A stretch of DNA of 64,000 nt from Gemmatimonadaceae bacterium (GTDB lineage: Bacteria; Gemmatimonadota; Gemmatimonadetes; Gemmatimonadales; Gemmatimonadaceae). The stretch covers positions 1 to 64,000 of the forward strand of contig JAUQWM010000042.1 in the NCBI GenBank assembly GCA_030835125.1, in the 5' to 3' direction. The notes under the pieces were generated by a model, which saw only the letters and a program-made list of their open reading frames with translations, did not search any database and was not told where the DNA came from. Each line of letters starts with the position of its first letter. Positions within the stretch are counted from its first letter, which is position 1. Shown here piece by piece: positions 10,008-45,722 of the stretch. Position numbers and translations under genes: made by a program.

Positions 10008-11273
10008 GTGACGCATCGCGTTCCCGCCGTCATCGCGCTCGTTGCCGCCGCGATGGCGGCTGCCTGCTCCGGCGATTCCGGTCCCGGCTCGGCGGCCGGC
10101 GCCGGCCTCGCGACCGTCTTCGATTCCACCGGCGACACCGTCGTGGCGCGCGTCGATGGCGACGTCCCCGCGGGCGCGATCCGGTCGCTGACGGAAGTCC
10201 TGCGCATCGCGCCCTCGATGGACGACACCTCGCTCTTCAGCGAGGTGACCGACTTCGAGGTGGACGCCGCCAACCGGATGTGGGTGTACGACTACCAGGG
10301 GCGCCGACTCTTCCTCTTCGACACGGCCGGCACACTCGTCAGGCGCATCGGACGGCAGGGATCCGGGCCGGGCGAGTTCCGGCAGGGGAACGGCATGGTC
10401 GCCCTGGCCGACACGGGCATCGCGATCCTCGACTCGCAGAACGCGCGGGTCTCGTTCTTTACGTCGGCCGGTGACTTTCGCACCAGTTGGCCGGTGCCGT
10501 CCGGCTTCTCCACGTCGAACGGCCTGATCTCCGATGCCTCGCGCTCGCTCTATCTGCGCCGGCCGGTCACGCCGCCGCGCGAAGGCGAGATCCTCGGCCG
10601 CATGGGTCTCGTGCGACTCCAGGACGGCGGCGCGTTCGGCGATTCGCTCGCCCCGCCGGACCTGCCCGTCCAGCGGGACACGTACCTCGCCGTCAGTCCC
10701 GACGGCAACGGCCGGTCGTCCACGTCGTCGTCCTACGCCCCCAACTATTTCTGGGACTGGCACCCCGGCGGGTTCTTCGTCGCCGGGCAGGGGGGCCGGT
10801 TCGAGCTCGTCATCGCGCGCCCCGGCCAGAAGCCGGTCATCGTCAGGCGCACGTCGGCCAGCGTGCCCATCCCGCCTGACGAACGCGCCGAGGAGAAGGA
10901 GCGGATCACGTTCAGCATGCGCCAGACGCAGCCCGGCTGGACCTGGAACGGGCCGGAGATCCCCGAGTCGAAGGCGCCAGTGACCGGCGTTACGGTTACG
11001 CGCGACGGGAACATCTGGGCGCGGGTCGCCACGCCGTCCGAGCGCATCCCCGACGCCGAGCTGCCGGAACGCCGGGAGAAGGGACCGCCGGTCCGGCACT
11101 ACCGGTCGCCGGTCGTCTACGAGGTCTTCGCCCCGGACGGCCGGTTCCTCGGTCGGGTGGCACTGCCACCGAGGACGATCCTCGTCCAGGCCGACGGTGA
11201 GGTGGTCTGGTGCGTTTCGCGGGACGCGGACGACCTGCCGGCGGTGGTCCGCTACAGGGTCGAGTCAGAATAG
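10008..11273 (+). CDS. Six-bladed beta-propeller lipoprotein
   Basis: This is an exported lipoprotein of about 421 residues with NHL/TolB-like propeller character. The GTG at 10008 gives a compact signal peptide (THRVPAVIALVAAAMAAAC) ending in a lipobox; an in-frame TTG at 9972 would add 12 residues before it. Repeated propeller-like strands follow, including the hallmark segment RRIGRQGSGPGEF. The same Gly-Ser-Gly-Pro-Gly-Glu motif occurs in the paralogue at 61342-62505. Function is unknown. The stop at 11271-11273 is followed directly by a long heptad repeat array. Confidence 0.75.
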   Translation: MTHRVPAVIALVAAAMAAACSGDSGPGSAAGAGLATVFDSTGDTVVARVDGDVPAGAIRSLTEVLRIAPSMDDTSLFSEVTDFEVDAANRMWVYDYQGRRLFLFDTAGTLVRRIGRQGSGPGEFRQGNGMVALADTGIAILDSQNARVSFFTSAGDFRTSWPVPSGFSTSNGLISDASRSLYLRRPVTPPREGEILGRMGLVRLQDGGAFGDSLAPPDLPVQRDTYLAVSPDGNGRSSTSSSYAPNYFWDWHPGGFFVAGQGGRFELVIARPGQKPVIVRRTSASVPIPPDERAEEKERITFSMRQTQPGWTWNGPEIPESKAPVTGVTVTRDGNIWARVATPSERIPDAELPERREKGPPVRHYRSPVVYEVFAPDGRFLGRVALPPRTILVQADGEVVWCVSRDADDLPAVVRYRVESE

Positions 11274-11489
11274 GCATCAGGCATCAGGCATCAGGCATCG
11301 GGATCGGGAATCGGGAATCGGGAATCGGGAATCGGGAATCGGGCACCATGCGCCAGACATCGGGCATCAGGCATGCACCGCTGTGCCCCCTGATGCCTGA
11401 TGCCTGATGCCTGATGCCTGATGCCTGATGCCTGATGCCTGATGCCTGATGCCTGATGCCTGATGCCCGATGCCCGATGCCCGATGCCT
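11274..11489. repeat. Heptad tandem-repeat array A, hairpin-forming
   Basis: Starting at the base after a stop codon there are three copies of GCATCAG, then degenerate units (GCATCGG, then about four GGAATCG-type units), a short centre, about ten CTGATGC units and three CCGATGC units. The right half is the reverse complement of the left, so the transcript could fold into a long hairpin. TGTTTTT follows at 11489-11495, so it could act as a terminator for the upstream gene. Related arrays are at 36707 and 45556. Confidence 0.85.
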
Positions 11490-11538
11490 GTTTTTCGTCT
11501 AGCTTCTTGCGCCGGAGACGTCCCTCGCCCCATCCCCC

Positions 11539-14500
11539 GTGCGTACATCCATCCTCGCGGCGTGCCTGGCGGCGGCGCTGACGTCGTGCCTCACTGGCGA
11601 CCAGACCGGTGGCGCCGAGGCGGATGGTGCGCTGGTGCGGGACGTGCGCGCGCTTGCACCGGTTTCGCTTCCCTGGAACGTCAGGCTTTCGGTGCCGACG
11701 TCCCTGACCCGTTGTTCGCCAGCCGATTCATTCGCGCCCGCGGACCTGGCCTGCGAGGCGGGTCGCCTCGAGGAACGCGTCGCCGCCAGCCTCGCGGCGG
11801 TCGCCGGACGCGCTGCGGCGACCCTGGCCTCCGGGGTGGACGCCGATGCGATGCATGCCGCTGCGCTCGTGGACCTCCTGGCGGACGGCACGGCGGGAAA
11901 TACGCTCGACCGGTCCGTCTCATACCTCGAGATGATCACCCGACTCGCGCCCCGCCGGGCCAGCGCATGGACGGACCTGTCCGCGACGTACCTGATGCGC
12001 GCGGGGGCCAGGCAGGATGGTCGAGCGCTGGTGGCCGCCCTCGACGCCGCCACGCGCGCGCTGGAGATCGACACCGCGTCAGCGCCGGCGAGCTACAACC
12101 GCGCGGTCGCGCTCGACCTGCTCGCTATGGACGTCGAGGCCACCCGCGAGTGGCATCGCTTCCTGCGATTGGAGCCGCGGAGTCCGTGGAGTGCCTTCGC
12201 GAAGGGTCGCGCCGGCATCTGCGGGGTCGGCGTGCCGGGGCGCCCGGCACCGGACGGCCCGGCAGACACGCTGCGCGCGTTCGTCAGGCGCGACGCATTC
12301 GACGCCCGGATGTTCGCGTGGGAGGTCCTGCTCGGTCAGTGGGGCACCGAGTACCTCGCGGGCAACCTGGCCACCGCCGACGCGCGCCTGGCGGCCGCGG
12401 CGATCGTGGCGGGGGAATCGGCCGGCCGGTTCGGAGATTCGTCGCTCACCTCGGCGGTTCGCGCCATCGAGACCGCGCGCGGCGACACCGCGCGTTCGCG
12501 CGCGCTTGCCGGCGCACATGTCGCCTATGCGCGCGGGCGCGACAGCACCATTGCCAACCGCCACCGGGAGGCCGAACGCGACTTCGCCAGCGTCCTCGCG
12601 ACCCCGGGCATCTCCCCCGTCCTGCGCGACTGGGCGCAGCTCAGTCACGCCAACTCCACGCTGTTCCTGCTTCAGCCACGCGAGGCCACGCTCGCGGTGC
12701 GACACCTCCTGGCACGCCTCGACAAGGAGGCACACCCGTCGCTCGCTGGACGCGCGCACTGGATGCTGGCGGTGATCGCCTTTCGTGAGGGACGGGACAT
12801 CGAGGGCATCGAGGCGATGACGCGCGCGCGCGCGTTGTTCGAGCGTGCTGGCGAAGTCGATAACCACGCCGCGACGACGAGCCTGGCCGGTGAGCGCGCG
12901 CTGCGGCTTGGACTCGACGATGGATTTGCGGAGACTGTGGAGGCGCTGCGGCGGCTTCGCCCGTACCGGTCGGGCATCTGGCGCCATAACGCGCTCTACA
13001 TCCTGGTCACGAACGCGACGCGGCTCGGGCTCGACCGCGCCGCCATGACCCTGGTTGATGAAGGCGCCGCCGTGGCGGCGGGGACCCGCACCGTCGCCCT
13101 GACCGAGATGCGCCTGGTGCGCGCCCGCGCCCTGTGGGAAGCGGGTGACATGGAACGGGCGGGCGAAGCCCTTGCCATTGCTGCCGGAGCCATCGACTCC
13201 ATGCCGCCCGGGACGACGCGCGACGCATTCCGGGCCGAACTGGCGCTGACGCTGGCCAGTGGGCCGCTGGCCAGCACCGGCGCGCGCGCCTACGCGATGC
13301 TCGACACCGTCGTGAAGTTCCACGAGCGCTCTGGCCGCGCCACGCGGCTCATCCCGGCCTGGGTAGCCCGCGCGCGCGTCGGCCTCGCGCTGGGAGTGGC
13401 CGACTCGGCGGAAGCCGACCTCGGTCGCGCGACACGACTGTATGCGCTGCAGGGCGACAGCCTGACGAACCTGCCGGAACGCGCCGCCCTCCTCGAACGC
13501 GCGCGCGGCGTCTTCGACCAGCTCGCGATGACGCGCCTCGCGCGCGGTGACGCCAGCGGAGCGCTCGAAGCGCTGGAACGCGGGCGGGCGTCGTTCGTCG
13601 CGCCATCGCGGCCCACGTCGGCATCGACCGGGATCGACGGCATGGCGCTCGACCTCGCGCTCGTGGGTGACACGCTCCTGGCCTGGGTCATCGACCCGGC
13701 CGGCGTCACGGTGGAACGCGCGACCGTTCCGGGCGACTCGGTGCGGGTGGTCATCGAACGGGTGCGCGTCGCCATGGAACTGCGAACGCCCGGTGCTTCG
13801 GTGCGACCGCACCTCGCCAGGTTGTACGACTGGCTCGTGCGCCCGGTCGCGGCACGACTCGGCACCGACAGCACGACCCTCGCAATCGTGAGCGACGGCG
13901 CGCTGGCGGAAGTCCCCTTCGCGGCGCTGCTGGATTCGGCAACCGGCAGGTACTTCGTCGAGTCCCGGCCGCTGCGATGGGCGCCCACGTTGAGAGACGC
14001 CCGCCAGCGGCGGTCGCGTGCCCTGGGAGGCGTCTCACTGATCGTCTCGGCACCCGAGCTCGATCGTGGGGCATTCCCCTCGCTGGCGGCGCTCCCGGGT
14101 GCAGGTCGTGAAACGCGCACCGTCGCTTCCCGGGTGGTGCGGCCGCTGGTGCTCAGTGGTCGCGAGGCAGACAGCAGCAGCATCGTCGCGGCACTGCCGT
14201 CGGCCGCGCACTTCCACTTTGCCGGTCACGCCGTGTTCGACGACGCGCGCCCCAACCGGTCGCGGCTGGCGGTGATGCCGCGCGGGATCGACGCGGCATC
14301 CATTGCGCGGCTCGACCTGGGCGGACTGCGACTCGCGGTGCTTTCGGCCTGCGAGACGATGCGAGCCCCCGGCGTTCGCGGCACCGGGTTCACCGGCCTC
14401 ACCGAGGCATTCCTCGCGGCAGGCGCGGGCGGCGTGCTGGGGTCGTTGTGGCGCGTGGATGACGAGGCCACGGCGACGCTCATGGATGCCTTCTATCGGG

Positions 14501-14625
14501 TCCATGAGGCGACCCGCGACCCCGCGGTGTCATTGCGCGAGGCACAGCTGCAGCTGATCCGTGGCCCGGCAGGTCCGTCCCGCGACCCCGCGGCGTGGGG
14601 CGCGTTCAGACTGGCCGGGCGTTAG
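11539..14625 (+). CDS. TPR-repeat lipoprotein with C-terminal CHAT (caspase-like) domain
   Basis: A 1028-residue protein starts at a GTG with a signal ending in the lipobox ALTSC. About residues 90-690 are helical TPR-like repeats. The C-terminal 280 residues form a CHAT domain, a caspase-clan protease fold: the catalytic His is in HFHFAGHAVFDD (about residue 897) and the catalytic Cys in LSACETMRAPGVRGTGFTGL (about residue 938), followed by the conserved GVLGSLWRVDDEAT. Both catalytic residues are present, so activity is plausible. The lipid anchor places it outside the cytoplasm. The stop TAG lies inside a GTTAGGC heptamer. Only 25 bp separate it from the unknown gene downstream, suggesting co-transcription. 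Confidence 0.9.
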   Translation: MRTSILAACLAAALTSCLTGDQTGGAEADGALVRDVRALAPVSLPWNVRLSVPTSLTRCSPADSFAPADLACEAGRLEERVAASLAAVAGRAAATLASGVDADAMHAAALVDLLADGTAGNTLDRSVSYLEMITRLAPRRASAWTDLSATYLMRAGARQDGRALVAALDAATRALEIDTASAPASYNRAVALDLLAMDVEATREWHRFLRLEPRSPWSAFAKGRAGICGVGVPGRPAPDGPADTLRAFVRRDAFDARMFAWEVLLGQWGTEYLAGNLATADARLAAAAIVAGESAGRFGDSSLTSAVRAIETARGDTARSRALAGAHVAYARGRDSTIANRHREAERDFASVLATPGISPVLRDWAQLSHANSTLFLLQPREATLAVRHLLARLDKEAHPSLAGRAHWMLAVIAFREGRDIEGIEAMTRARALFERAGEVDNHAATTSLAGERALRLGLDDGFAETVEALRRLRPYRSGIWRHNALYILVTNATRLGLDRAAMTLVDEGAAVAAGTRTVALTEMRLVRARALWEAGDMERAGEALAIAAGAIDSMPPGTTRDAFRAELALTLASGPLASTGARAYAMLDTVVKFHERSGRATRLIPAWVARARVGLALGVADSAEADLGRATRLYALQGDSLTNLPERAALLERARGVFDQLAMTRLARGDASGALEALERGRASFVAPSRPTSASTGIDGMALDLALVGDTLLAWVIDPAGVTVERATVPGDSVRVVIERVRVAMELRTPGASVRPHLARLYDWLVRPVAARLGTDSTTLAIVSDGALAEVPFAALLDSATGRYFVESRPLRWAPTLRDARQRRSRALGGVSLIVSAPELDRGAFPSLAALPGAGRETRTVASRVVRPLVLSGREADSSSIVAALPSAAHFHFAGHAVFDDARPNRSRLAVMPRGIDAASIARLDLGGLRLAVLSACETMRAPGVRGTGFTGLTEAFLAAGAGGVLGSLWRVDDEATATLMDAFYRVHEATRDPAVSLREAQLQLIRGPAGPSRDPAAWGAFRLAGR

Positions 14626-14650
14626 GCACTTCTTCCACGTCGGGGACCCC

Positions 14651-15535
14651 ATGCCCAAGGTCAGGACACTCTACATCCAGGTCGGCGGACTCTGCATGCT
14701 GGTGCAGCGGATGGACCTGGAACGCCTCGTCGTGCTGATGCCGTCGCACACCAGGCCGAATCACCTGCATTGCCCGTACCTCCACGCCGCACCCGGGTTC
14801 ACCGGCGGCCGGGAGGTGCTGAAGCGCGTTGAAGGCGTGCTCGATCTCGGCGGGCTCTCGACGAGTGGAGGGCGCCAGGACCTCGACGGGGTCGTCCTGG
14901 ACGCGTCACACGCTACGGGCGGCTCTCCAGTCCGGGGGGAGTACATGGAAAACCCGCCAGCGGGCGCCCTGGTCACCCGTATCGTGCTGCCGCTGGCGGC
15001 GGCCGAGTTCCAGCCGCTGGGAGAGCAGGCGGAGCTGCACCTCCATGCCGGGAGCGACCACGAGGTGGTGTATAGCTACGGCCGTGTCGGCATCCGGATC
15101 GACCTCGATGACGCGCTGGATGCCCTCGAGATCCCCCGCCTCGGGGTGCGACTCCTGCCTGACGATAACGACAGCGTGGAGCTGGCGTTCCTGAACGTCA
15201 GGCCGAAGGACCTCGGGGCTCCGCTGGAGCGGATGGCGCCCAACGAGCACCTGCATCACGTTCACGGCTACTTCGACCTCCTCGACCTGAAGGCGCCAGC
15301 GCCGATGGTGCATTCGCCCCCAAGGCTGCGGACCGGGGTCGACAAGCGCCTCGGGGACACGGTCTGCGACAGGGGGCGGTACGCCACGCTGCCCCGGTGG
15401 GGCGCCAGTCATCCCGCCGGCGAGCACATCGGCGCGCAGCGCGACGAGACCGGGCGGGAGGACCCGCACATCCTCTCCATCGACCCGTATACCTGCACGG
15501 TGGGTGGTGGATGTTACCCACCCGGCGACTGCTAG
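14651..15535 (+). CDS. Uncharacterised protein with Cys/Gly-rich tail, next to the CHAT gene
   Basis: I do not recognise this 294-residue protein. The ATG at 14651 is preferred to the longer open frame, which runs into the CHAT gene. It has no signal peptide or membrane helix. The N-terminal part reads MPKVRTLYIQVGGLCMLVQR, followed by a beta-rich middle and a His-rich patch (MAPNEHLHHVHGYFDLL). The last 20 residues hold three cysteines in the pattern CTVGGGCYPPGDC. Its position 25 bp after a TPR-CHAT gene suggests a functional link, but the CHAT protein is predicted exported and this one cytosolic. Confidence 0.65.
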   Translation: MPKVRTLYIQVGGLCMLVQRMDLERLVVLMPSHTRPNHLHCPYLHAAPGFTGGREVLKRVEGVLDLGGLSTSGGRQDLDGVVLDASHATGGSPVRGEYMENPPAGALVTRIVLPLAAAEFQPLGEQAELHLHAGSDHEVVYSYGRVGIRIDLDDALDALEIPRLGVRLLPDDNDSVELAFLNVRPKDLGAPLERMAPNEHLHHVHGYFDLLDLKAPAPMVHSPPRLRTGVDKRLGDTVCDRGRYATLPRWGASHPAGEHIGAQRDETGREDPHILSIDPYTCTVGGGCYPPGDC

Positions 15536-15639: not shown

Positions 15640-16605
15640 ATGCCTGTCAGTGCCAGGAATTCCAATTGGACCGCCGCGATGCTCACCCTGCTGGCCGCAA
15701 CGGCCTGCGCGCCGCGCGGCGGCGTGACCACCGGCGCCGTCAGCGTCCCCGGCGTGCGCGTCGTCGAGACGGCGTCGGGACAGGACCTCGCCTTCTCCGA
15801 CCTGGTGCAGCGGATCGCGGGTGCCGATGTCGTCTTCTTCGGGGAGCAGCACGACGACCCCGAGACCCATCGCACCGAGCTCGGCGTCCTGGATGCCATC
15901 GGGCGCTCCGGGAGACCGGTGATCCTCTCCCTCGAGATGTTCGAGCGTGACGTCCAGGGCGTGCTCGACGACTACCTCGCCGGCCGCGTCGGCGAGGCGG
16001 AGTTCCTGGCGAAGTCGCGGCCCTGGGATCGGTACGTCACGGACTATCGCCCGATGGTGGAGCTGGCGAAGGCGAGGGGTTGGGCCGTCGTGGCGTCGAA
16101 CGTCCCGCGCTCCATGGCGTCGGCGATCGGCCGGAAGGGCCTGGCGGCGCTCGACACCCTCACGCCGGTGGAGCGCTCGTGGGCCGCGCGGGACAACCAG
16201 TGCCCCGACGATGCCTACCGCGCGCGTTTCATGGAGACCATGCGCGGGCACGGCAGCGGCGGCGCCGCGCCGGCGCCCGGTGACACGCTGCCGACCACGG
16301 TCGCGAACCGTTTCTACTACGCGCAGTGCGTGAAGGACGAGACCATGGCCGAGTCGATCGCCTCGGCGCGCGAGCGCGGTCCGCGGAACGCCATCGTCGT
16401 GCACTACGACGGCGCGTTCCACAGCGACTACCACCAGGGCACGGTCGCCCGGGTCCAGCGGCGCGCCCCGAACCTGCGGATGGTTGTCCTGTCGGCGGTG
16501 CCGGTGACCGACCAGTCCACGGCCACGGTGGTCGAGCACAAAGGACGCGCCGACTTCCTCATCTTCACCAAGCGGATTCCGCCGAGGGCGCCCGCGCGCC
16601 CCTGA
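15640..16605 (+). CDS. ChaN family lipoprotein (haem-binding-like)
   Basis: The product (321 residues) begins with a signal peptide containing the lipobox AATAC. Conserved ChaN features follow: VVFFGEQHDDPETHRTELGVL, the segment VILSLEMFERDVQGVLDDYLAG, SRPWDRYVTDYRPMVELAK and NAIVVHYDGAFHSDYHQGT. Members of this family (ChaN, DUF399) include a haem-binding lipoprotein in Campylobacter; the role elsewhere is uncertain. The ATG at 15640 is chosen because it places a normal signal peptide at the N terminus. Confidence 0.85.
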   Translation: MPVSARNSNWTAAMLTLLAATACAPRGGVTTGAVSVPGVRVVETASGQDLAFSDLVQRIAGADVVFFGEQHDDPETHRTELGVLDAIGRSGRPVILSLEMFERDVQGVLDDYLAGRVGEAEFLAKSRPWDRYVTDYRPMVELAKARGWAVVASNVPRSMASAIGRKGLAALDTLTPVERSWAARDNQCPDDAYRARFMETMRGHGSGGAAPAPGDTLPTTVANRFYYAQCVKDETMAESIASARERGPRNAIVVHYDGAFHSDYHQGTVARVQRRAPNLRMVVLSAVPVTDQSTATVVEHKGRADFLIFTKRIPPRAPARP

Positions 16606-36634: not shown

Positions 36635-36733
36635 CGCGTGACTCGTGACTCGTGACTCGGCGATTCAGGCAGATACGTCGCCGCCCAACGCCTCCCGATC
36701 CCCCCCGATGCCTGATGCCTGATGCCTGAAGCC
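36631..36733. repeat. Heptad arrays B1 (GTGACTC) and B2 (CTGATGC)
   Basis: Two short heptad tracts flank a 46-bp spacer. B1 (36631-36660) is GTGACGC followed by three GTGACTC units and overlaps the stop codon of the upstream gene. B2 (36707-36733) is CGATGC followed by CTGATGC units and a degenerate CTGAAGC. B1 units recur inside the Nudix gene near 59334-59361; B2 units match arrays A and C. Confidence 0.8.
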
Positions 36734-45555: not shown

Positions 45556-45722
45556 AGGCATCAGGCATCAGGCATCAGGGCCGGCTGCCAGAAAGGCGCC
45601 CTGGACCGCTGGTCCGGGACGCCTCTGCCCTGATGCCCGATGCCCGATGCCCCATGCCCCATGCCCCATGCCCGCTGATGCCTGATGCCTGATGCCTGAT
45701 GCCTGATGCCTGATGCCTGGCC
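45556..45722. repeat. Heptad tandem-repeat array C, hairpin-forming
   Basis: Three GCATCAG units (from 45556) face a right arm of CTGATGC, CCGATGC and CCATGCC-type units and then six CTGATGC units (about 45676-45722), around a centre with GGCGCC-type inverted sequence (45596-45628). The transcript could form a large hairpin. It lies just downstream of the DUF5916 gene on the minus strand and shares its unit with array A. Confidence 0.85.

Follow-up and report, generated by a model that had tools for sequence, protein, structure and literature searches.

A predicted TPR-CHAT lipoprotein gene and its cysteine-tailed neighbour as parts of a conserved sigma/anti-sigma module identified by sequence comparison

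Sequence comparison indicates that a CHAT-domain lipoprotein gene from a Gemmatimonadaceae bacterium and the gene following it belong to a conserved module, which is composed of an ECF sigma factor, a single-span anti-sigma factor, an outward-facing TPR-CHAT protein, a protein of the GLC family without an export signal and often, after these, one peptidase. As judged from the gene neighbourhoods, this module is split in the source genome into a CHAT–GLC pair in the window (the whole 64,000-nucleotide stretch of DNA that was analyzed) and a second GLC gene with predicted sigma and anti-sigma genes on another contig. The explanation favoured here, which is tentative and falls somewhat short of probable, is that the CHAT–GLC pair forms half of a membrane-spanning proteolytic switch, to which GLC would be coupled via the sigma factor and not as a direct substrate.

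The CHAT gene (11539..14625, + strand, GTG start) encodes a protein of 1028 amino acids from the full-length TPR-CHAT orthologue group, other genomes of the phylum containing full-length orthologues at 31–41% identity. Residues 758–1027 match the Pfam CHAT family (PF12770) with 187.7 bits (cut-off 24). The histidine and cysteine of the caspase clan, which the initial annotation had considered to be kept, were read from the sequence as the catalytic-type His897 in FAGHA (codon 14227..14229, + strand) and Cys938 in LSACET (codon 14350..14352, + strand), and neither varies in 13 of 13 aligned full-length orthologues. By profile and His–Cys dyad the product is a member of the CHAT peptidase family, and proteolysis is predicted. 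The lipid anchor proposed earlier is likewise predicted from the translation, in which the N-terminus VRTSILAACLAAALTSC is lipobox-like under the lipobox rule (LTSC with Cys17; predicted lipoprotein signal at 11539..11589, + strand). The TPR region that had also been proposed is assigned by homology: TPR matches are present in relatives, but at E ≤ 1 the window protein itself gave none. Of 37 full-length CHAT proteins, 30 carry a lipobox or a hydrophobic segment at the N-terminus; the other seven have no recognizable anchor under the rule applied here, which counts against the favoured explanation, and wrong start calls are perhaps the cause.

The neighbouring gene (14651..15535, + strand) starts with an ATG 25 nt after the end of the CHAT stop codon at 14625 and encodes the unfamiliar 294-residue protein, terminating in CTVGGGCYPPGDC, that had been noted at this distance; relatives, whose N-termini align with its opening residues, support 14651 as the start. 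A leave-out profile, which was built from proteins adjoining orthologous CHATs with the window protein excluded from the building set, matched this predicted cytoplasmic protein with an E value of 8.5e-13, and 0 of 100 shuffled copies fell below E 0.6. By the profile match and its tail cysteine (Cys282) the neighbour is a GLC family member. The working name GLC follows the N-terminal strand motif GGLCMLV (14684..14704, + strand), which aligns with GLCxFV-type motifs of relatives.

Single- and two-sequence searches with the neighbour returned only a paralogue from its own genome at E ≤ 1e-3. A search of 99 genomes gave, besides this paralogue, two weak matches at 0.007–0.009; searches of 394 other genomes and of plasmids gave no match, and none of 16 candidate stretches was confirmed. 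The reading of the neighbour as an orphan gene was rejected once CHAT neighbourhoods were compared. Among 27 aligned GLC members, the only invariant columns are His40 (window codon 14768..14770, + strand; 27 of 27) and the tail cysteine, column identity averages 19% and the stretch preceding the tail varies in length; a search for a conserved cleavage site, suggested by the initial annotation, found no motif in the body. The window protein matched no Pfam, NCBIfam or PADLOC family, none of the 27 members matched Pfam or PADLOC at E ≤ 0.1, and the sole NCBIfam match among members was a weak one (0.014) to a radical SAM model. Furthermore, no relative was found among solved structures, and fold recognition with models of low confidence gave no structural match at Z ≥ 2; in one relative the C-terminus is predicted to be disordered, with residues 237–268 under pLDDT 50. 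The available parts of the literature searched, like the databases above, yielded no description of the family. On these comparisons, GLC is a new and very diverse protein family, undescribed in the literature and databases searched.

GLC was found in 21 of 23 genomes with a full-length CHAT orthologue (E ≤ 1e-30) versus 1 of 372 without (Fisher 1.4e-31). The co-occurrence test proposed in the initial annotation thus supports a conserved pair, and a lack of linkage in other genomes, by which that annotation would have been refuted, was not observed. Of the 46 distinct GLC members, 44 have at least one gene for CHAT, ECF sigma or anti-sigma within 6 kb; within the same distance CHAT accompanies 42 and a sigma or anti-sigma gene 25, and CHAT is directly adjacent on the same strand in 31. 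No GLC member was present at 73 control loci with generic CHAT genes, which come mostly from other phyla, and viral contigs contributed two generic CHAT loci and nothing more. The linkage of GLC to the module persists across rearranged gene orders in many loci.

On the other contig of the source genome, the second GLC gene adjoins the predicted ECF sigma and anti-sigma genes, away from CHAT. The sigma protein matches Sigma70_r4_2 with 33.8 bits, above the cut-off, and the anti-sigma-like protein has one transmembrane segment at 71–89 and a zf-HC2 score of 14.3 bits, below the cut-off of 22.2. The initial annotation did not include this sigma/anti-sigma pair. In an Acidobacteriota locus (L080), the gene order is sigma, fusion protein, GLC and Trypsin_2, and the fusion protein consists of an anti-sigma-like N-terminus, a transmembrane segment (65–83), TPR and CHAT, an arrangement that ties the anti-sigma factor to CHAT and places CHAT outside. 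A motif search upstream of 77 CHAT, GLC and sigma genes found no shared promoter motif, which counts against the favoured explanation; control of the module by sigma is thus putative.

In the window GLC protein, neither a signal peptide nor a transmembrane segment was found by a 19-residue hydropathy rule. Transmembrane segments are absent from 37 of 37 GLC and 26 of 26 sigma proteins, and a single one is present in 22 of 26 anti-sigma proteins of at least 250 amino acids; of the peptidases neighbouring GLC, 18 of 19 have no N-terminal hydrophobic segment. A looser 15-residue rule identified a hydrophobic N-terminal stretch in 6 of 37 GLC proteins, which is counted against the favoured explanation. 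CHAT is predicted to be outside the membrane and GLC inside, an arrangement that favours indirect over direct coupling. By these hydropathy rules, applied to 37 GLC and 37 CHAT proteins, the puzzle of an exported protease whose partner lacks a signal is real and family-wide. We infer the following mechanism: an envelope signal would activate CHAT, activated CHAT would cleave the anti-sigma factor in its outer part, and this cut would release sigma, leading to expression of the module. GLC, linked to CHAT through this switch, would be an adaptor or inhibitor partnering a cytoplasmic peptidase. The cysteine tail of GLC, specific to each system, would be a label by which a shared component recognizes every GLC of that system.

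The strongest competing explanation, although on the doubtful side, is that TPR-CHAT cuts GLC directly, as Csx29 cuts Csx30, with the tail or the preceding linker as a cleavage or docking site. This would suit the immediate same-strand adjacency of the two genes, the variable pre-tail length with the disordered C-terminus of one relative, the tail as the only strongly conserved terminal element of GLC and the proteases of several clans that adjoin it. However, CHAT and GLC are predicted to lie on opposite sides of the membrane, in agreement with the L080 fusion, the GLC body has no conserved cleavage motif, tails differ between systems, and the second GLC of the source genome sits with sigma and anti-sigma, apart from CHAT. 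Of the paired system initially envisaged, the conserved gene pair, the tail and the topology puzzle remain, whereas cutting of the neighbour by CHAT is opposed by the predicted topology and the missing motif.

The switch explanation assigns a role to the tail of GLC, IDPYTCTVGGGCYPPGDC in the window (15479..15532, + strand), in which Cys282 (15494–15496) is the invariant tail cysteine. A cysteine lies within the final 20 residues of 43 of 46 GLC members versus 100 of 515 controls, which bears out the weight first given to the cysteine tail; in the remaining three it is 29–35 residues from the end. By these alignments the tail cysteine is a family signature and the one near-constant feature of GLC. 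Tail sequences vary from system to system, and the window tail is 82% identical to that of the own-genome paralogue; in four paralogue pairs the tails are 71–86% identical, whereas the bodies share only 27–30% identity. The observed mean of within-genome tail sharing was reached in 0 of 2000 label shuffles, a permutation that ignores relatedness. Six of the 12 identical residues in the window and paralogue tails have different codons, and tail residues are kept through synonymous changes in the four best pairs; recent gene conversion therefore does not explain the likeness, and the synonymous differences indicate purifying selection on the tail. An orphan GLC gene retains the tail of one particular system. 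Tail sharing is absent from one pair at a single locus (L055), which counts against the favoured explanation. The sharing between paralogues resembles an address label. In the source genome the coded motif YTCT-x-GG has exactly two occurrences, both within GLC genes. Each of the 3 genomes tested shows this pattern, its tail motif being found twice and solely in the two GLC genes; a general protein tag was ruled out in these three genomes by this confinement.

The peptidases adjoining GLC vary in clan (C14, S8, M28, Trypsin_2, M48 or a second CHAT). A BLAST search for same-strand genes of the C14, S8, M28, trypsin-like or second-CHAT type within 4.5 kb was positive for only 20 of 46 GLC genes, which counts against the favoured explanation; Pfam identified two further peptidase neighbours, a trypsin (L075) and an M48 peptidase (L193). 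In the window the gene after GLC encodes a ChaN/Tiki-family protein, at most a putative peptidase, which is likewise counted against that explanation. An extension of that explanation, itself unlikely, is that GLC is an address-labelled adaptor, the hypervariable body of which would bind one of several unrelated peptidases while the tail would plug into the common sigma/anti-sigma/CHAT switch; the candidate peptidases are caspase, subtilase, trypsin-like, M28 and M48 enzymes, all cytoplasmic. It is rather improbable that GLC is instead an effector, such as a toxin or pore-former, which is inactive until the neighbouring cytoplasmic peptidase removes its tail, with sigma and CHAT controlling expression only. 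The diversity of the body, the several GLC copies per genome (up to four) and a peptidase neighbour in about half of the loci would fit such a role, but no membrane-active or enzymatic motif was recognized in GLC, Pfam and solved structures hold no relative, and an ordinary removable inhibitory peptide needs no conservation of tails between same-system paralogues. Finally, GLC body similarity is rank-correlated with that of CHAT (0.71), sigma (0.62) and anti-sigma (0.77), as expected of joint inheritance, but it is very improbable that GLC merely rides with the CHAT–sigma module as a fast-evolving gene whose tail likeness reflects recent duplication, given the linkage through rearranged gene orders, the system-specific tail of the orphan GLC and the purifying selection indicated on the tail.

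Several known systems resemble this module. In bacterial gasdermin/protease pairs, a small protein with a functionally important C-terminal segment adjoins a caspase-like protease, as GLC does; gasdermins have a conserved cysteine near the N-terminus, whereas that of GLC is C-terminal, and the sequences do not match. The identification of GLC as a bacterial gasdermin was dropped, as there was no match of any kind and no structure model, all being of low confidence, reached Z ≥ 2.

The remaining comparisons are drawn from the cited papers. As in the type III-E CASP/Craspase system, with Csx29 (TPR-CHAT), Csx30 and CASP-sigma (PMC10028731), the module combines a TPR-CHAT protein with an ECF-type sigma factor and its inhibitor, tying a protease to a transcriptional response. 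The window CHAT also has a weak match to the NCBIfam Csx29 model, its 19.6 bits being below the cut-off of 300. However, CHAT here is anchored and predicted to be outside the membrane, inhibition of sigma falls to a transmembrane anti-sigma factor, GLC and the swapped peptidases are additional, and on inspection of gene lists only, neither a Cas7-11 gene among the predicted neighbours nor a CRISPR array in the window was noticed. The ECF54 group, near whose sigma genes those for CHAT, subtilase and carboxypeptidase lie and for which proteolytic control has been proposed (PMC8999054), is similar by gene context alone; it is described there as controlled without an anti-sigma factor, whereas most sigma-bearing loci here have one. 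In the regulated proteolysis of membrane anti-sigma factors of the RseA/DegS type (mentioned in PMC10028731), a cytoplasmic sigma-binding end, one transmembrane segment and an outer part open to an envelope protease correspond to the arrangement predicted here, but the proposed outer protease would be CHAT, of the caspase clan, which some Acidobacteriota fuse to the anti-sigma-like end. The EACC2/caspase/ECF-sigma systems, which are conflict-type neighbourhoods with a constant partner domain (PMC8195603), also combine a caspase-type peptidase, an ECF sigma factor and a constant partner; GLC is set apart from EACC2 and TRADD-N solely by matching no Pfam family.

The module would allow the Csx29/Csx30/sigma logic to be studied outside a CRISPR context and joins caspase-clan proteases, anti-sigma release across the membrane and exchangeable effector peptidases, which are usually separate fields. 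Should the tail act as a label, natural matched and mismatched pairs of this short element would be available within one genome, so that recognition could be tested at once. If the adaptor reading is true, bacteria could swap the executing protease and yet retain the same trigger.

The gene pair described in the initial annotation was borne out: the CHAT gene at 11539-14625 (Pfam match 187.7 bits) is followed, after a gap of 25 nt, by the neighbouring gene P0001 at 14651-15535. The CHAT protein also keeps the histidine and cysteine ascribed to it, with His897 and Cys938 invariant across 13 full-length orthologues. The genome holding the window comprises 4.48 Mb in 73 contigs; its phylum is taken to be Gemmatimonadota, since the named CHAT loci nearest to that of the window belong to Gemmatimonadota and Longimicrobium. 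Between the CHAT gene and a gene for a propeller lipoprotein, the intergenic stretch 11272-11490 is occupied by a pair of inversely oriented arrays of 7-bp repeats, AGGCATC x15 and then CCTGATG x15, which could form a long hairpin; an 18-mer of these arrays recurs at 36707 and, inverted once more, at 45559-45715. A second CHAT lipoprotein of the genome, from another subgroup and with clear TPRs, lies on contig C22 (locus L009, 5822-8674) beside a hybrid two-component regulator; a GLC gene is absent there, and the short genes before this CHAT look sigma-like and zinc-finger-like by eye.

In simple searches P0001 appeared to be an orphan gene: 99 related genomes yielded only its own-genome paralogue and two weak matches, a two-sequence profile had no match among the phylum's 394 other genomes, and nothing could be confirmed by scanning genome contigs. 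This reading was rejected once the surroundings of CHAT genes had been compared. A search with the CHAT protein found orthologues at E<=1e-15 in 72 of 395 genomes, 23 of them at E<=1e-30; all 33 loci with a CHAT at E<=1e-30 (the window included) and some weaker ones were fetched (L numbers), and their genes were predicted with a home-made gene caller, so that starts are approximate. Many of these loci carry, directly 3' of CHAT, a gene of ~240-370 residues that begins like xFxGLCxFV...VLMP and finishes in a cysteine tail. A profile of 16 such neighbours, with P0001 and the paralogue (P0003) left out, matches P0001 at 8.5e-13 and P0003 at 5.1e-13, and a separate profile of seven of the most divergent members matches most core members; as judged by profile similarity, P0001 therefore genuinely belongs to this diverse family, here named GLC for the motif at the N-terminus. 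P0003 is encoded on the minus strand of contig C16 (L008:8884-9732), with genes for an ECF-type sigma factor and an anti-sigma-like TM protein after it; it shares ~30% body identity with P0001, and residues 276-293 are 82% identical. Among six sequences modelled with AlphaFold2, P0001 gave a poor model (pLDDT 34.8) and a relative from L077 a middling one (59.1, pTM 0.64), mostly of strands and with a C-terminus under pLDDT 50; structural matches to the GLC models were sought and none was found.

Co-occurrence of the two families, proposed as a check in the initial annotation, proved to be strong. A profile of 27 GLC members gave 40 matches in 22 of 395 genomes: 21 of 23 genomes with a full-length CHAT orthologue carry GLC, as do 1 of 49 whose CHAT matches are all weaker and 0 of 323 with no CHAT match. 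Its seeds were neighbours of CHAT genes, and it may be biased to linked members; the genome search itself is position-blind. At E<=1e-30, 29 of 33 CHAT loci hold a GLC gene; two of the other four (L019 and L057) lie at contig ends, and L061 and L067 contain sub-threshold candidates, each with a tail cysteine. Of 46 distinct GLC genes (L078 duplicates L044 and was dropped), 42 lie within 6 kb of a CHAT gene, 31 of them immediately beside it on the same strand, and 25 lie within 6 kb of a sigma or anti-sigma gene. The two exceptions with neither neighbour are L193 and L194, the latter close to the end of a contig. No GLC gene was found at 73 generic CHAT control loci, which come mostly from other phyla.

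Sigma, anti-sigma, TPR-CHAT and GLC genes demonstrably form a recurrent module, the order and orientation of which vary; in the genome of the window it is split over two contigs. In the acidobacterial locus L080 the gene row is sigma, a single chain running from an anti-sigma-like end through a TM segment to TPR-CHAT, GLC and Trypsin_2. The CHAT proteins of L082 and L083 (also Acidobacteriota) likewise have a TM segment after an anti-sigma-like N-terminus in one chain, and a sigma-like gene lies 5' of all three fusions, most clearly in L080. The label 'anti-sigma-like' comes mainly from likeness by eye and position, because the only zf-HC2 match among these fusions, a weak one (0.017), is in L083. 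The similarity of GLC bodies follows that of CHAT (rank correlation 0.71 over 40 loci), sigma (0.62 over 25) and anti-sigma (0.77 over 24), and the tail has a small extra partial correlation with each (0.19-0.30, reached by at most 3 of 500 permutations). This co-variation shows joint inheritance and points to no particular reader of the tail.

The only invariant columns in the alignment of 27 members are H40 and C282, the tail cysteine. Cysteine occurs among the last 20 residues of 43 of 46 GLC members versus 100 of 515 control proteins, and lies 29-35 residues from the end in the remaining three, of which L047 and L052 have a Gly-rich tail. Position -2 from this cysteine is mostly Y or F and position -1 mostly T, S or N. 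With the cysteine omitted, tail identity averages 0.257 for within-genome pairs of low body identity versus 0.146 between genomes, a mean reached by 0 of 2000 label shuffles. Four pairs are conspicuous, their bodies being 27-30% and their tails 71-86% identical: P0001/P0003, L193/L045, two members in L077 and two in L053. Same-genome members from other systems mismatch in the tail: in genome G300, the orphan GLC of L193 (7536-8309, with a zinc-ribbon M48 peptidase after it) carries a tail that belongs to a different system, matching L045 and not L054. A third same-locus pair, in L055, counts against a simple rule, as its tails do not match (0.29); its two members adjoin two different CHATs. 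Codons of matched tails differ synonymously, and each of the three genomes tested has the coded motif at exactly two sites, both in GLC genes. The existence of the tail signature is demonstrated, and we read the tail as a putative system-specific recognition element under purifying selection.

Many of the GLC neighbours scanned with Pfam were picked for a peptidase-like look, and 19 of 22 gave a peptidase family: C14 caspase (L046, L187, L189, L077, L064, L055 and L188), S8 (L067, where the GLC candidate is below the family threshold, L060, L190 and L056), M28 (L042 and L192), Trypsin_2 (L080 and L075), M48 (L193), divergent M20 (L008) and a second CHAT (L046 and L187). The scanned neighbours in L195, L043 and L048 gave no Pfam family. 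BLAST places such a peptidase no more than 4.5 kb away, in the same orientation, for 20 of 46 GLC genes. M28 peptidases follow GLC at L042:5524-7425, L192:6002-7972 and L045:11617-13527, the last assigned by BLAST alone; a long N-terminal region precedes their M28 domain, without a Pfam match in L042 and L192, and its start looks HAD-like by eye. Adjoining a CHAT locus, L050:12683-15033 encodes two similar proteins in tandem, each with a signal-like N-terminus and both with the same C-terminal string, GRGTPKAQNSAFVP. In the window, GLC is followed at 15679-16605 (start uncertain) by a ChaN/Tiki-superfamily protein (PF04187, 198 bits), a possible but uncertain local equivalent of these peptidases. 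Tiki proteins are metalloproteases.

Among anti-sigma proteins of 250 aa or longer, 22 of 26 have a TM segment by a 19-residue hydropathy rule, compared with none of 37 GLC and none of 26 sigma proteins; under a less strict rule, 6 of 37 GLC N-termini are picked out. An N-terminal hydrophobic segment or lipobox is present in 30 of 37 full-length CHATs, and 18 of 19 neighbouring peptidases examined lack an N-terminal hydrophobic segment. These counts predict one compartment common to CHAT and the outer part of the anti-sigma protein, and another for GLC, sigma and the peptidase. Putative cleavage of GLC by CHAT, suggested in the initial annotation by analogy with Csx30 and gasdermin systems, would be topologically awkward.

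In published work, the inhibitor Csx30 of an ECF-like sigma factor is cut by Csx29 (PMC10028731); ECF54 sigma factors are surrounded by genes for CHAT proteins, subtilases and carboxypeptidases and are proposed to be under proteolytic control (PMC8999054); and caspase and ECF sigma genes have been reported in shared neighbourhoods together with an unvarying partner domain (PMC8195603). With these precedents, coupling of CHAT to sigma is not a new idea; literature searches found no description of the GLC family, its tail or the swapping of peptidases. The roles of protease, substrate and reader of the tail are inferred. In the most likely account, CHAT would operate a sigma/anti-sigma switch from outside, and GLC would be the labelled partner of a cytoplasmic peptidase.
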